This document shows, piece by piece, positions 4,019-11,240 of a stretch of 64,000 bases of DNA. The stretch is from positions 5,828,001 through 5,892,000 of the forward strand of contig NZ_CP087164.1 of NCBI RefSeq assembly GCF_021172045.1, read 5' to 3'. Below the pieces are notes generated by a model. It made no database searches. It worked only from the letters and a program-made list of their open reading frames with translations, and was not told where the DNA came from. The stretch comes from Capillimicrobium parvum (GTDB taxonomy: Bacteria > Actinomycetota > Thermoleophilia > Solirubrobacterales > Solirubrobacteraceae). Made by a program: the position numbers and the translations under genes. Position 1 is the first letter of the stretch, and every line of letters begins with the position of its first letter.

Positions 4019-5365
<1,347 letters not shown>

Positions 5366-5366
5366 C

Positions 5367-6047
5367 GTGCCCCGCGCGCTGGTCCTGCAGCACGACGCCG
5401 ACGCGCCGGCCGGCCTGCTCGCCGAGTGGGCCGCCGCGCGCGGCTGGACCCTGGAGACGGTCCGCCTGGACCTGGGCGAGCGCGCGCCCGCGACGCTGCA
5501 CGAGTACGACCGTGTCGTCTCGCTCGGCTCGGGCGACGCCGCCGACGACGAATCCGTCGCCTGGCAGGCCGAGGAGCGGCGGGCGCTGGCCCGGGCGCTC
5601 GAGGACGACGTGCCGGTCCTGGGCATCTGCTTCGGCGGCCAGGCGCTCGCGCTCGCGCTCGGCGGCGGCGTGCGCCGGGCGGCGCGGCCGGAGATCGGCT
5701 GCTGGACCGAGGTCGACACCGCGGATCCGGCCGTCGTGGGCGCCGGGCCGTGGTTCGAGTGGCACGTCGACGAGATCGTCGCGCCCCCGGGCGCCGAGAT
5801 CCTGGCCCGCAACGCGAGCGGCGTGCAGGCCTGGCGCCTCGGCGACCACGTCGGCCTGCAGTTCCATCCGGAGGTCGACGAGGAGATCGTCGTCCTCTGG
5901 ACGGCGCGCAGCACCGATCCGCGGGCGCCGGCGCTCCCGGACGTGCGGCGGCAGACCGCCGAGCTTCTGCCCGTCGTGCGCGAGCGGGCGTTCGCGCTGT
6001 TCGACGCGCTGATCGGCGTGCCCGCGCCTACACGATCGAGCCGATGA
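5367..6047 (+). CDS. Class I glutamine amidotransferase-like protein
   Basis: A 226-aa protein with the triad glutaminase fold: nucleophile Cys88 in GICFGGQ and His167/Glu169 in LQFHPEV. It is a stand-alone domain like the GuaA-type amidotransferase proteins often annotated as GMP synthase-like. No synthetase partner is adjacent, so the acceptor substrate is unknown. The start GTG 5367 follows the fumarase stop by 1 bp, implying co-transcription with fumC. Its 3' end overlaps the 3' end of the VIT-type gene on the other strand by 20 bp. Confidence 0.8.
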   Translation: MPRALVLQHDADAPAGLLAEWAAARGWTLETVRLDLGERAPATLHEYDRVVSLGSGDAADDESVAWQAEERRALARALEDDVPVLGICFGGQALALALGGGVRRAARPEIGCWTEVDTADPAVVGAGPWFEWHVDEIVAPPGAEILARNASGVQAWRLGDHVGLQFHPEVDEEIVVLWTARSTDPRAPALPDVRRQTAELLPVVRERAFALFDALIGVPAPTRSSR

Positions 6048-6732
6048 GGACCCCGATCGCGTAGCTGACGACCGCCGCCCCCACGCCGAACGCGAGCTGG
6101 CGGGCGCCCGAGTACCACGGCGACCGTCCGGTGAGGCGGGTGATCGCCGCCCCGATCCCGAACAGGGCGACGCACGACAGCGCCAGGCTGACCGCGACGG
6201 CGGTGTCCCCGTCGAGGAACGCGAACGGCGCGACCGGCGGGATCGCCCCGATGCAGAACAGGCCGAACGATGCCACCGCGGCCTGCAGCGCCGATCCGCC
6301 GAGCTCGTCGGGATCGATCCCGAGCTCCTCGCGCGCGTGCGTGTCCAGCGCCGTCTCCGGCGACGCCGAGAGCGCGGTGGCGACCCGGTCGGCGAGCTCG
6401 GCGTCCAGGCCCTTGCGCCGGTAGATCTCCGCGAGCTCGGCATGCTCGGCCTCCGGCATGTCGCGCAGCTCGCGCCCCTCGATGCGCAGCTCGCGCGCGT
6501 AGAGCTCGCGCGCGCTCGTCACCGAGATCCACTCGCCCATCGCCATCGAGAACGCGCCGGCGACGAGCCCGGCCAGGCCGGTGATGAGGATCTGCGTGCT
6601 GCCCAGCGACGCGCCGGCGACGCCCATGACGAGGCTCAGGTCGGAGACCAGCCCGTCGTTGGCGCCCAGCACCGCGGCGCGCAGCGCGTTGCCGCTGCCC
6701 GCCCGGTGCTGCTCGGCGTGGGGACGCGCCAT
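6028..6732 (-). CDS. VIT1/CCC1-family membrane transporter
   Basis: A 234-aa integral membrane protein of the VIT1/CCC1 family, which moves iron or manganese ions. N-terminal blocks GANDGLVSDLSLVMGVAGA and GAFSMAMGEWISV match the first two helices of the family. A cytosolic Glu-rich segment (residues about 80-125, with ELYARELRIEGREL and AEHAELAEIY) corresponds to the metal-binding domain of VIT proteins, and three C-terminal helices follow. The 3' end overlaps the amidotransferase gene tail to tail. It lies 7 bp downstream of the semialdehyde dehydrogenase stop, so it may be the last gene of that leftward operon. Confidence 0.85.
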   Translation of the reverse strand: MARPHAEQHRAGSGNALRAAVLGANDGLVSDLSLVMGVAGASLGSTQILITGLAGLVAGAFSMAMGEWISVTSARELYARELRIEGRELRDMPEAEHAELAEIYRRKGLDAELADRVATALSASPETALDTHAREELGIDPDELGGSALQAAVASFGLFCIGAIPPVAPFAFLDGDTAVAVSLALSCVALFGIGAAITRLTGRSPWYSGARQLAFGVGAAVVSYAIGVLIGSIV

Positions 6733-6739
6733 GGCGGCG

Positions 6740-8218
6740 TCAGACGTTCATGGCGATGTACTTCGTCTCCAGGTACTCGTCGATGCCCTCGGGGCCGCCC
6801 TCGCGGCCGAACCCGGACTGCTTGACGCCGCCGAACGGCGCGCCCGCGTTGGACACCATGCCCTGGTTGAGGCCGATCATGCCGGTGTCCAGCGCCTCGC
6901 ACACCCGGAACGCGCGGTTGAGATCCTGCGTGAAGACGTACGCGACGAGCCCGTACTCGGTGTCGTTGGCGCGGGCGATCGCCTCGTCGTCGGAGCGGAA
7001 CGTGATCACCGGCGCGACGGGCCCGAAGATCTCCTCGCGCAGGATCATCGCATCGTCGGGCAGGTCCGCCAGCACCGTCGGCGCGTAGAAGTAGCCGGGG
7101 CCGTCGACCCGGTTGCCGCCGACGACGGCGCGGGCGCCCTTGCCCACCGCATCTTCGACGAGCTCGGCCACCTTCGAGCGCTGCGCCTCGTCGATGAGCG
7201 GCCCGACCTTCACGCCGTCCTCGGTGCCGCGGCCGACCTTCAGCCCGCCGATCTGCGCGGCGAGGCGCTCGGAGAACTCCTGGGCGACCGACTCGTGGAC
7301 GTAGATGCGGTTCGCGCTCGTACAGGCCTCGCCGCCGTTGCGCATCTTCGCCAGGAGCGCCCCCTCGACCGCCTTGTCGAGGTCGGCGTCCTCGAAGACC
7401 AGCAGCGGCGCGTTGCCGCCGAGCTCCATCGAGACCTTCAGCACCTGCTCGGCGGACTGCTCGATCAGCTTGCGGCCGACCTCGGTCGAGCCCGTGAACG
7501 ACAGCTTGCGCGTGCGCGGGTCGCGGATCAGCGGTTCCATGATCGTGCCCGACGACTTCGACGTCACCACGTTGAGCACGCCGCCCGGCAGGCCGGCCTG
7601 CTCGAGGATCCCCGCGAGCGCCAGCATCGACAGCGGCGTCTGCTTGGCCGGCTTGACGACCATCGAGCATCCGGCGGCGATCGCCGGGCCGATCTTGCGG
7701 GTGCCCATCGCCAGGGGGAAGTTCCAGGGCGTGATGAACAGGCACGGCCCGATCGGCTGCTGCATCGTCAGCACCCGGCCGGCGCCGGTCTCGTTGACCG
7801 TGAAGCGGCCGTTGATGCGCACCGCCTCCTCGGCGTACCAGCGGAAGAAGTTCGCGGCGTAGGCGATCTCGCCCTTGGACTCGGCGACCGGCTTGCCCAT
7901 CTCGAGCGTCATCAGCAGCGCGAGCTCGTCGGTGCGCTCGGTGATCAGGTCGTAGGCGCGACGCAGGATGTCGGACCGCTCGCGCGGCGCGACCTCCCGG
8001 AACGTCTTGAACGCCTCGTCGGCCGCCGCGAGCGCGGCCTTCGCGTCCTCGACCTTCGCGTCGGCGATCTCGCACAGCGTCGCGCCCGTCGCCGGGTCCT
8101 CGACGGGCAGCGTCTCGCCCCCGGTCGCGTCGACCCACCTGCCGCCGATGAACAGCTGCTTGCGCACCGAGTCGAGCACCGTCTGCTCGGACGTCGTCTC
8201 CGTCGCCGCCATTGTCAC
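6740..8218 (-). CDS. gabD: NAD(P)-dependent succinate-semialdehyde dehydrogenase-like ALDH
   Basis: Aldehyde dehydrogenase of the GabD type, expected to oxidise succinate semialdehyde (or a related semialdehyde) to the acid with NAD(P)+. The 492-aa length is normal. Catalytic residues are present: Asn166 (TPWNFP), Glu265 (MELGGNAP) and Cys299 (GGEACTSANR), plus EEIFGPV near the C-terminus. The start GTG 8218 overlaps the stop of the TPP-enzyme gene (GTGA), so the two are translationally coupled. An ATG two codons later is an alternative. The pairing with a TPP decarboxylase suggests it receives succinate semialdehyde made from 2-oxoglutarate; that is inference from context. Confidence 0.9.
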   Translation of the reverse strand: MTMAATETTSEQTVLDSVRKQLFIGGRWVDATGGETLPVEDPATGATLCEIADAKVEDAKAALAAADEAFKTFREVAPRERSDILRRAYDLITERTDELALLMTLEMGKPVAESKGEIAYAANFFRWYAEEAVRINGRFTVNETGAGRVLTMQQPIGPCLFITPWNFPLAMGTRKIGPAIAAGCSMVVKPAKQTPLSMLALAGILEQAGLPGGVLNVVTSKSSGTIMEPLIRDPRTRKLSFTGSTEVGRKLIEQSAEQVLKVSMELGGNAPLLVFEDADLDKAVEGALLAKMRNGGEACTSANRIYVHESVAQEFSERLAAQIGGLKVGRGTEDGVKVGPLIDEAQRSKVAELVEDAVGKGARAVVGGNRVDGPGYFYAPTVLADLPDDAMILREEIFGPVAPVITFRSDDEAIARANDTEYGLVAYVFTQDLNRAFRVCEALDTGMIGLNQGMVSNAGAPFGGVKQSGFGREGGPEGIDEYLETKYIAMNV

Positions 8219-9864
8219 GTCACCACCGTTTCGGTTCCCAGTTCCTCGATCGCCACGTCGATCGAGTAGTCGATCGGCACGACGATCATCGAAGGCACGT
8301 CAAGCGTCAAGGCGTGGCGGAGATGGCGACCGAAGTCCTCGGTCGACTCACAGCGCCACGCGGGCAGGCCGAAGGACTCGGCCAGCCGCACGAAGTCCGG
8401 GTTCGTGAAGTCCGTGCCGAAGTGGCGCCCGAACTTCTTGTCCTGCTTCCACACGATCGAGCCGTACTGCCGGTTCTCCCAGATGACGTTCACGACTGCC
8501 GTGCGCAGGCGCGTCGCCGTCTCGAGCTCCTGGAAGTTCATGAGCGCGCCGCCGTCGCCGCTGACCGTGACGACGTTGCGCTCGGGATGCACGAGCTTGG
8601 CCGCGATGGCGCACGGGATCGCGAAGCCCATGCCGGCCAGCCCGTTGGCGATCATCACCGTGTTCGGCTCATGCGCCGGGAACATCCGGCCGATCCACAG
8701 CTTGTGCAGGCCGACGTCGGACACGAGGATGTCCTGGCGCCCGAGCGCCTGGCGCAGCTCCCAGAGCACGCGCGGCGGCTGCATCGGGAACGCGTCGTCG
8801 GTCTGCGCCGCCTCGAAGCGGCCGAGCACGACCTCGCGCAGGCGGACCGACTCGGCCCGGACGGGATCGGAGCGCGCGTGGCGGCAGTCCATGGCCAGGC
8901 GGCTGAGCACGTGGTAGATGTCGCCGACCAGCTCGACCTCCGGGGTGAAGTACTCGTCGATCTCGGCCTGGTCGGAGTCGATGACCACGATGCGCTTGTC
9001 GCCGCTCGGGTTCCAGTGCTTGGGCGAGTGCTCGACGAGGTCGTAGCCGACCGCGATCACCACGTCGGCGTCCTCGAAGCCGGCCATCGCGTAGTCGCGC
9101 GACTGCAGCCCGACGGTACCCAGCGCGCGCGGGTCGGTGTAGTCGAGGACGCCCTTGCCCATGAACGTCTCGGCGACGGGGATGCCGGTCGCCCGGGCGA
9201 ACTCGCGCAGCGCGGGCGCGGCGCCCGCGCGCACGACGCCGTTGCCCGCCAGCACGACCGGGTTCAGCGCCGAGCGGATGACGTCGGCCGCCTTCAGCAG
9301 CTCGCGCGCGCCCGGCTCCGGCAGCACGGGACGCCGGCGGGGCAGCGGCGTGGCGTCGACCTCCTCCGCCATGACGTCCTCGGGCAGCTCGAGGTGCGTC
9401 GCGCCGGGCTTCTCGGACTCGGCGACCTTGAACGCCTTGCGCACGACCTCCGGGATGATCTCGGGCGCCATGAGCCGCGCGTTCCACTTCGTGATGGGCC
9501 GCATCACCTCGACGAGGTCGATGTACTGATGCGACTCCTTGTGCATGCGCTCGAGGTCGCCCTGCCCGGTGAGCGCCACGAGCGGCGCGCGGTCGAGGTA
9601 GGCGTCCGCGACGGCGGTGACGAGGTTCAGCGCCCCGGGGCCGAGCGTGCCGAGGCAGACCCCGGCGCGGCCGGTGAGCCGGCCGGCCATGTCGGCCATG
9701 TAGGCCCCGCCCTGCTCGTGTCGAACAGGGATGAACTCGATCGACGAGTCGGCGAGCGACTCGTTGAGATCCAGCGTCTCCTCGCCCGGGATGCCGAACA
9801 CATGACGAACACCCTCCGCCTCGAGGCACTCGACGAACAGGTCCGAGGCGCGCCGCTTGCTCAC
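8215..9864 (-). CDS. TPP-dependent decarboxylase, acetolactate-synthase-like; candidate 2-oxoglutarate decarboxylase
   Basis: A 549-aa thiamine-diphosphate enzyme with the acetolactate synthase architecture: N-terminal PYR domain with catalytic Glu50 (RHEQGG), a central domain, and a C-terminal PP domain with the TPP/Mg motif GDGGALMN (436-443) and Asn464. Automated annotation would say acetolactate synthase. However, the segment ERMHKESHQYIDLVEV followed by ITKWN is, from memory, much closer to the cyanobacterial 2-oxoglutarate decarboxylase than to Bacillus AlsS. As in cyanobacteria, a succinate-semialdehyde dehydrogenase gene follows, here with a 4-bp overlap. No regulatory small subunit is adjacent. 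The start is GTG 9864 (VSKRRASDLF); codons further upstream lie in the divergent promoter region. Confidence 0.8.
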   Translation of the reverse strand: MSKRRASDLFVECLEAEGVRHVFGIPGEETLDLNESLADSSIEFIPVRHEQGGAYMADMAGRLTGRAGVCLGTLGPGALNLVTAVADAYLDRAPLVALTGQGDLERMHKESHQYIDLVEVMRPITKWNARLMAPEIIPEVVRKAFKVAESEKPGATHLELPEDVMAEEVDATPLPRRRPVLPEPGARELLKAADVIRSALNPVVLAGNGVVRAGAAPALREFARATGIPVAETFMGKGVLDYTDPRALGTVGLQSRDYAMAGFEDADVVIAVGYDLVEHSPKHWNPSGDKRIVVIDSDQAEIDEYFTPEVELVGDIYHVLSRLAMDCRHARSDPVRAESVRLREVVLGRFEAAQTDDAFPMQPPRVLWELRQALGRQDILVSDVGLHKLWIGRMFPAHEPNTVMIANGLAGMGFAIPCAIAAKLVHPERNVVTVSGDGGALMNFQELETATRLRTAVVNVIWENRQYGSIVWKQDKKFGRHFGTDFTNPDFVRLAESFGLPAWRCESTEDFGRHLRHALTLDVPSMIVVPIDYSIDVAIEELGTETVVT

Positions 9865-10004: not shown

Positions 10005-11240
10005 GTGATGCGACGGATCGCCTCCGCCCTTGCCCTTGCCGGCCTGCTGACCACCGCTTCCACCGGGGCGGCGTCGGCGTTCACCATCCGCGGCGCCGGC
10101 TTCGGCCACGGCGTCGGGATGAGCCAGTACGGCGCCGCCGGGTTCGCCGAGCACGGGTGGACCCACGAGCAGATCCTCACCCACTACTTCACCGGCACGG
10201 AGATCGGCCACGCCGACACGGACACCGTGGTGCGCGTGCTGCTGCAGTCGCCGCAGACCGCGACGTTCACCGGCGCGACGAACGCGGGGACGAAGAAGCT
10301 CGACCCGGGCAGGACGTACGGTGCGCGGGCGGCGTCGGGCGGCCGCGTCGACCTCCTCGACGCGGACGGCCGCGTGCTCGCGACCTTCGACGCGCCGCTG
10401 CGCGCCACGAACGGCGCGGACGATCCGGTCAAGCTGCTCGGCACCGCCGGCAACGGCGTGCGCGACGGCGCCTATCGCGGCTGGCTCGAGTTCCGGCCCG
10501 GCGCCATGGGCGAGGTCCTCGCCGTCAACGCGGTCGGCCTCGAGCAGTACGTCGCCGGCGTGATCGCCAACGAGGCGATCCCGTCGTGGCCGATGGAGGC
10601 GCTCGAGTCCCAGGCGGTGGCCAGCCGCGGGTACGCGCTCACGACGCGCAAGACGGAGTCGCGCGGCTGGGACCTCTACCCCGACACCCGCTCGCAGGTC
10701 TACCGGGGCGTCACCGGCGAGAACCCGAACACCAACCGGGCGGTCAACTCGACGGCGGGCGAGGTCGTCACCTATCAGGGCGACCCGATCACGACCTTCT
10801 ACTTCTCCACGTCGGGCGGGCGCACGGAGAACATCGAGAACGCCTGGCCGGGCTCGCCGCCCCAGCCCTACCTCGTCGGCGTCGACGACCCGTACGACGA
10901 CGGCTCGCCGTACCACCGCTGGGGGCCGATCCGGCTGTCGAAGGCCCAGGCCGCGGGCAAGCTCGGCGGACTCGTCAAGGGCTCGTTCGTCGGTGTCAAG
11001 GTGACCAAGCGGGGCGTATCGCCGCGAGTGGTCAAGGCGGTCGTGATCGGGACCGGCGGGCGCACCACCGTCACGGGCGCGACGCTGAAGGCGCGCTTCG
11101 GGCTGCGCGACACGTGGATGACGTTCAACGCGCCCAGCGCCGACGTGGGACCGCAGCCCTCTCAGGACCCCGCGACGGCGCCTCTGCCCGGCCCCGACCC
11201 GCCGTCGTCCGGCGGGTCGAAGGCCGGCGTCAGCCGCTGA
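10005..11240 (+). CDS. Secreted SpoIID/LytB-domain protein, permuted motif order
   Basis: Probably an exported cell-wall protein related to the lytic transglycosylase SpoIID and to LytB. The 411-aa protein has a signal peptide (residues 1-25, ending AASA). The GxGHGVGMSQYGA motif comes directly after it, with a following WTHEQILTHYF segment. The SpoIID core then comes later: LEQYVAGVIANEA, SWPMEALESQAVASRGYAL, and FYFSTSGGRTEN. In SpoIID itself, as I recall it, the GHGVGMSQ block is C-terminal to the core, so this order looks circularly permuted. The C-terminus is Pro/Ser/Gly-rich and disordered. The start is GTG 10005, with ATG 10008 equally possible. It converges on the MaoC gene. Confidence 0.85.
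   Translation: MMRRIASALALAGLLTTASTGAASAFTIRGAGFGHGVGMSQYGAAGFAEHGWTHEQILTHYFTGTEIGHADTDTVVRVLLQSPQTATFTGATNAGTKKLDPGRTYGARAASGGRVDLLDADGRVLATFDAPLRATNGADDPVKLLGTAGNGVRDGAYRGWLEFRPGAMGEVLAVNAVGLEQYVAGVIANEAIPSWPMEALESQAVASRGYALTTRKTESRGWDLYPDTRSQVYRGVTGENPNTNRAVNSTAGEVVTYQGDPITTFYFSTSGGRTENIENAWPGSPPQPYLVGVDDPYDDGSPYHRWGPIRLSKAQAAGKLGGLVKGSFVGVKVTKRGVSPRVVKAVVIGTGGRTTVTGATLKARFGLRDTWMTFNAPSADVGPQPSQDPATAPLPGPDPPSSGGSKAGVSR

Follow-up and report, generated by a model that had tools for sequence, protein, structure and literature searches.

The locus described here raises the question of whether an actinobacterium encodes, in a pair of overlapping genes, a route from 2-oxoglutarate through succinate semialdehyde to succinate and, if so, where that route stands with respect to the TCA cycle. 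The literature presents the OgdA/SsaD bypass as the means by which cyanobacteria close this cycle. The features that bear on the question, all within the window (the whole stretch of 64,000 nucleotides of Capillimicrobium parvum DNA that was analysed), are as follows:

8215–9864, minus strand: TPP-dependent decarboxylase gene of the NF006187 family, most likely a 2-oxoglutarate decarboxylase (P0001; 549 amino acids, GTG start at 9864)
6740–8218, minus strand: GabD-type (ALDH5-like) aldehyde dehydrogenase gene, most likely a succinate-semialdehyde dehydrogenase, SSADH (P0002; 492 amino acids, GTG start at 8218)
8215–8218, minus strand: GTGA overlap, four bases shared by the stop codon of P0001 and the start codon of P0002
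3962–5365, plus strand: class II fumarase/aspartase-like gene, likely start near 4019, approximately 1.4 kb from the gene pair
10005–11240, plus strand: SpoIID/LytB-domain gene, a divergent neighbour

Both reading frames of the pair, and the GTGA overlap reported by the initial annotation, are confirmed on the minus strand; the three TPP_enzyme domains of P0001 and the Aldedh domain of P0002 are full-length matches (Pfam), with the motif HKESHQYIDL occupying residues 108–117 of P0001. The overlap may serve to couple translation of the two genes, an arrangement that, taken by itself, is common in operons. A gene for a VIT1-family membrane protein (6028–6732, minus strand) starts just 7 bases past the P0002 stop codon, but was ruled out as a third member of the operon, as no homologue is found in 16 neighbouring regions of relatives. 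In 10 of the 16 relatives inspected, the decarboxylase gene has the SpoIID/LytB-domain gene as a neighbour; we use this neighbour as a marker of the syntenic locus and do not think it part of the pathway. The ‘fumarase’ that had been noted 1.4 kb away on the other strand is indeed present at that distance, but by NCBIfam it may be either a fumarase or an aspartase, both scores falling below cut-off. As such a gene is also close to the pair in only 4 of the 16 inspected regions (L151, L152, L156 and L160), its value as pathway evidence is weakened and any role for it in the pathway would be conjectural.

Turning to the identity of the TPP enzyme, the best curated family for P0001 is NF006187 (695 bits against a cut-off of 509; NCBIfam), with scores for the AlsS equivalogs lying under their respective cut-offs (NF006378, 474 bits against 510; TIGR02418, 431 bits against 551). 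NF006187 is itself named ‘acetolactate synthase’, and a catabolic enzyme converting two pyruvates to acetolactate, with the dehydrogenase as an unrelated operon partner, would be in keeping with that name, with the AlsS structures (PDB: 4rjj, 1ozf) that are the closest solved to P0001 and share its fold and TPP chemistry, and with an acetolactate decarboxylase encoded at C1:1185136. A cyanobacterial KGD ortholog, however, has its highest score in NF006187 (872 bits), so the label spans the family of cyanobacterial 2-oxoglutarate decarboxylases; the name, as applied to a family that includes these enzymes, should not be trusted. The same name is carried by plasmid-borne members of NF006187 (H1–H15) from Rhizobium, Leisingera, Streptomyces and haloarchaea (family set L043–L122).

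A scan of reference genomes for the family returned 47 cyanobacterial sequences plus 33 from other phyla; the cyanobacterial sequence that seeded the contig scan served only as a probe, the results themselves resting on database sequences. P0001 is 48–52% identical to the 47 cyanobacterial sequences, versus 38% to Bacillus subtilis AlsS. An initial tree, for which one AlsS plus distant paralogs served as the outgroup, suffered from long-branch trouble that left the order of groups open, and was rebuilt with three AlsS sequences. In the rebuilt tree these three form a separate clade (support 100/100), and P0001 lies outside it, together with cyanobacterial KGD, in a grouping of all NF006187 sequences that joins at 91/91, narrowly missing the strict threshold of 95/80. 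This joint clade, apart from both AlsS and IlvB, also holds uncharacterised subfamilies. Within it, P0001 sits in a subclade specific to its order (100/100), the nearest outsiders being L139 and L140, both from the actinobacterial phylum. We found no actinobacterial 2-oxoglutarate decarboxylase of this kind in the set of open-access papers searched.

The active site points in the same direction as the tree. MaKGD (from Microcystis) and ScKGD decarboxylate 2-oxoglutarate but not pyruvate, and 2-oxoglutarate docked into a model of MaKGD contacts Gln254, Val382, His385 (through ThDP), Lys386, Ala408, Leu467 and Lys471 (PMC10418658). After position 380 the numbering of P0001 is that of MaKGD plus two; all of these contacts, which derive from docking on a model, are kept in P0001 save for Leu467, which is replaced by Ser469. 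The predicted contacts Gln254, Lys386 and Lys471 thus correspond to Gln254, Lys388 and Lys473 of P0001, and both lysines are present in 28 of the 29 sequences in its clade (L042 is without the second). In AlsS these three positions are occupied by Phe, Ala and Gln, so that residues of the AlsS type are absent from P0001 whilst those for 2-oxoglutarate are present. The pocket differs from that of MaKGD at three positions: Ala384 is Leu, Asp462 is Asn and Leu467, as above, is Ser. Amongst the ThDP residues (MaKGD numbering), Glu50, Met410, Asp435, Tyr465 and Tyr531 are kept, Asp462 being the exception; a D462N variant of MaKGD retained 19% activity (PMC10418658).

For P0002, the closest solved structure is Escherichia coli GabD (PDB: 3jz4), with human SSADH (PDB: 2w8n) also among the closest. 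Residues reported to bind succinate semialdehyde (PMC10599462, PMC11681614) are retained, Arg174, Arg293 and Ser456 of P0002 being equivalent to Arg213, Arg334 and Ser498 of the human enzyme, as are the catalytic residues (Cys299 and Glu265, for Cys340 and Glu306). The second redox cysteine of human SSADH, Cys342, is in contrast replaced by Ser301, and the score of P0002 against the SSADH family TIGR01780 (596.8 bits), whilst the best for any family, is below the curated cut-off of 646 (NCBIfam). A second GabD-like frame (L142; G000:C1:2995795-2996598), approximately 15 kb from the gene for a KorA-type subunit, encodes 274 amino acids that match the C-terminal half of P0002 at 68% identity, and represents either a truncated copy or a split gene.

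GabD-like enzymes accept further acidic aldehydes, sulfolactaldehyde among them (PMC10599462), which would suit a decarboxylase acting on some other 2-oxo acid (a longer dicarboxylic or amino-acid-derived one, for example) whose semialdehyde is then taken up by the GabD-type enzyme. The Ala384Leu and Leu467Ser changes in the P0001 pocket would be compatible with this, but Gln254 and both lysines are all retained, as is the clamp for the succinate semialdehyde carboxylate in P0002; we therefore regard another substrate for this particular pair as improbable.

Elsewhere in the family substrates probably do vary, to judge from the pairing followed across genomes. Lysine is found at position 471 (MaKGD numbering) in 56 of 57 sequences with a GabD- or Sad-type partner; 4 of 6 sequences partnered by a third class of dehydrogenase, found in Planctomycetes, Gemmatimonadota, a gammaproteobacterium and Leisingera, have histidine there, which hints at a different 2-oxo acid in those cases. 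The subgroup with His for Lys471 (L100, L107, L109, L111, L117, L119, L122 and L170) tends towards the third-class partner. A separate subclade, drawn from Streptomyces-like actinobacteria and from family f16 of the phylum, combines Met254 with Thr382 (L127 and L129–L135 from f16, together with L013, L123, L125, L126 and L171).

Amongst the source genome and 60 relatives (61 genomes), a TPP enzyme of the window type is present in 33: in 32 it scores over cut-off, whilst that of G005 is partial; a 33rd over-cut-off match to NF006187 (in G021) belongs to another subfamily and stands outside this count. The TPP enzyme has a GabD-type dehydrogenase no further than approximately 3.2 kb away in 24 of these 33 (a hand count from coordinates), a pairing that is beyond chance. 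The dehydrogenase is found in 52 of the 61 genomes, including relatives that have no decarboxylase, and must therefore have other roles too. In most cyanobacteria, by comparison, the same TPP family is preceded by a Sad-type dehydrogenase gene, and on two haloarchaeal plasmids a Sad-type enzyme is again the partner, with a 4-base overlap. That the pairing recurs, with non-orthologous dehydrogenases and in both gene orders, speaks for an aldehyde as the product set free by the TPP enzyme.

The tree, the residues of the active site and the conserved pairing together support the original view that the TPP enzyme is nearer to the cyanobacterial 2-oxoglutarate decarboxylases than to AlsS. A catalytic role in acetolactate formation appears unlikely to us: besides the separate clade of AlsS, the missing AlsS-type residues and the conserved GabD-type pairing, the acetolactate decarboxylase gene lies away from the locus, and such a gene occurs in 7 of 33 genomes with an over-cut-off NF006187 enzyme versus 6 of 28 without. 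Given this independence of the two enzymes among relatives, we reject an acetoin pathway as the principal interpretation.

Decarboxylation of 2-oxoglutarate to succinate semialdehyde followed by oxidation to succinate is, in our judgement, the best explanation of the gene pair and a probable one. P0001 would be a ThDP- and Mg-dependent 2-oxoglutarate decarboxylase, by analogy a homotetramer, in which Lys388, Lys473 and Gln254 would hold the substrate whilst CO2 is removed and succinate semialdehyde set free; P0002 would then use NAD(P) to oxidise the aldehyde, a reactive compound, to succinate. Weighing against this are the modest identity of P0001 to characterised enzymes (approximately 50%), its placement in an order-level clade of its own, and the two glutamate decarboxylases that score over cut-off in the source genome, which could supply the SSADH through GABA. 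With these and the acetolactate decarboxylase present, both GABA and acetoin routes are possible in this genome. The glutamate decarboxylases would also accommodate a P0001 that acts as a carboligase on 2-oxoglutarate (with glyoxylate, for instance), the dehydrogenase either clearing semialdehyde that escapes or working in a GABA shunt. Carboligation is frequent in TPP decarboxylases, and that of 2-oxoglutarate with glyoxylate has been reported for Mycobacterium tuberculosis Rv1248c (PMC10418658). Rv1248c, however, belongs to a different TPP family, and the tight pairing with a dehydrogenase favours a released aldehyde; we consider carboligation very unlikely as the function of P0001.

As to mechanism, the pair likely works as the cyanobacterial bypass does (SynPCC7002_A2770/A2771; MaKGD), with which it shares the NF006187 TPP family, the predicted 2-oxoglutarate contacts, an adjoining SSADH gene and the reactions proposed; the operon is a variant. 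The initial annotation, in calling this the gene pairing of the cyanobacterial TCA bypass, was right as to the adjacent SSADH but not as to its class or the gene order: the partner here is of the GabD/ALDH5 type, 33% identical to SsaD and not its ortholog, and the order of the two genes is reversed. The haloarchaeal plasmid pairs (Haloarcula sp. JP-L23 and Halorarius halobius; annotated as acetolactate synthase plus SSADH) resemble our locus in TPP family, SSADH neighbour and overlap, but place the dehydrogenase first, this being of the cyanobacterial type (52–54% identity to the cyanobacterial enzyme), and have Gly at position 254 of the putative decarboxylase.

A further difference from the cyanobacterial bypass is that the source genome encodes a 2-oxoglutarate dehydrogenase (OGDH). 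The E1 component, at C1:474381-476972, scores 1107 bits against a cut-off of 764, and the frame in which it lies (L001; G000:C1:472881-478472) runs from an E2 acyltransferase portion with lipoyl-like stretches, recognised by eye, into E1; it is an OdhA-like E2–E1 fusion, with lipoyl domains apparently retained. A KorA-type subunit is also found (C1:2980605, 615 bits). The suggestion that this organism could run the TCA cycle without OGDH consequently finds no support: the search of the genome recovered a complete OGDH as well as the KorA-type subunit, the bypass replaces no missing OGDH, and the TCA cycle therefore has no need of the gene pair. In the source organism the pair probably adds a branch alongside the OdhA-like enzyme, and probably also alongside the KorA-type oxidoreductase; this side route would skip succinyl-CoA, lipoate and substrate-level phosphorylation.

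Relatives provide a different setting. An OGDH match over cut-off is present in 52 of the 61 genomes, and the decarboxylase is present in all nine without a full OGDH match versus 25 of the 52 with one (Fisher p 0.003, a value that ignores ancestry). Five of the nine belong to one genus of family f4 and all five have a KorA-type subunit, for which reason f4 was set aside as a clean case of OGDH replacement. G012, G017 and G018, also among the nine, are 78%, 64% and 89% complete, respectively, and G005 (78% complete) holds only fragments of both genes. In G018 neither OGDH nor KorA was found, and its locus (L156) brings together decarboxylase, SSADH and a fumarase-like gene; we see this as a lead, not a demonstration. 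In a phylum-wide sample, the 21 genomes with the family divide into 10 with OGDH and 11 without, so overall mutual exclusion is not seen there; of 26 genomes of named non-relatives with a family member, three of which are cyanobacterial, OGDH is present in 10. In f16, all nine genomes with an NF006187 member show no OGDH match; eight of these members fall in the Met254/Thr382 subclade, the ninth, L140, grouping nearer to the clade of P0001.

A broader proposition—that the decarboxylase/SSADH pair replaces OGDH in G018, and perhaps in f4, and that much of NF006187, in bacteria and haloarchaea alike, consists of broadly distributed 2-oxoacid decarboxylases that have acquired different aldehyde dehydrogenase partners on repeated occasions—is one we put forward tentatively, considering it rather doubtful as a whole. 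Those relatives seemingly without OGDH are nonetheless of more interest than the source organism, and replacement is open to direct test there. The occurrence of the same decarboxylase family alongside unrelated SSADHs in actinobacteria and haloarchaea suggests that the reaction is more widespread than the cyanobacterial bypass, hidden under an acetolactate synthase label; metabolic models that use this label would direct pyruvate towards acetoin in cells that may instead convert 2-oxoglutarate to succinate.
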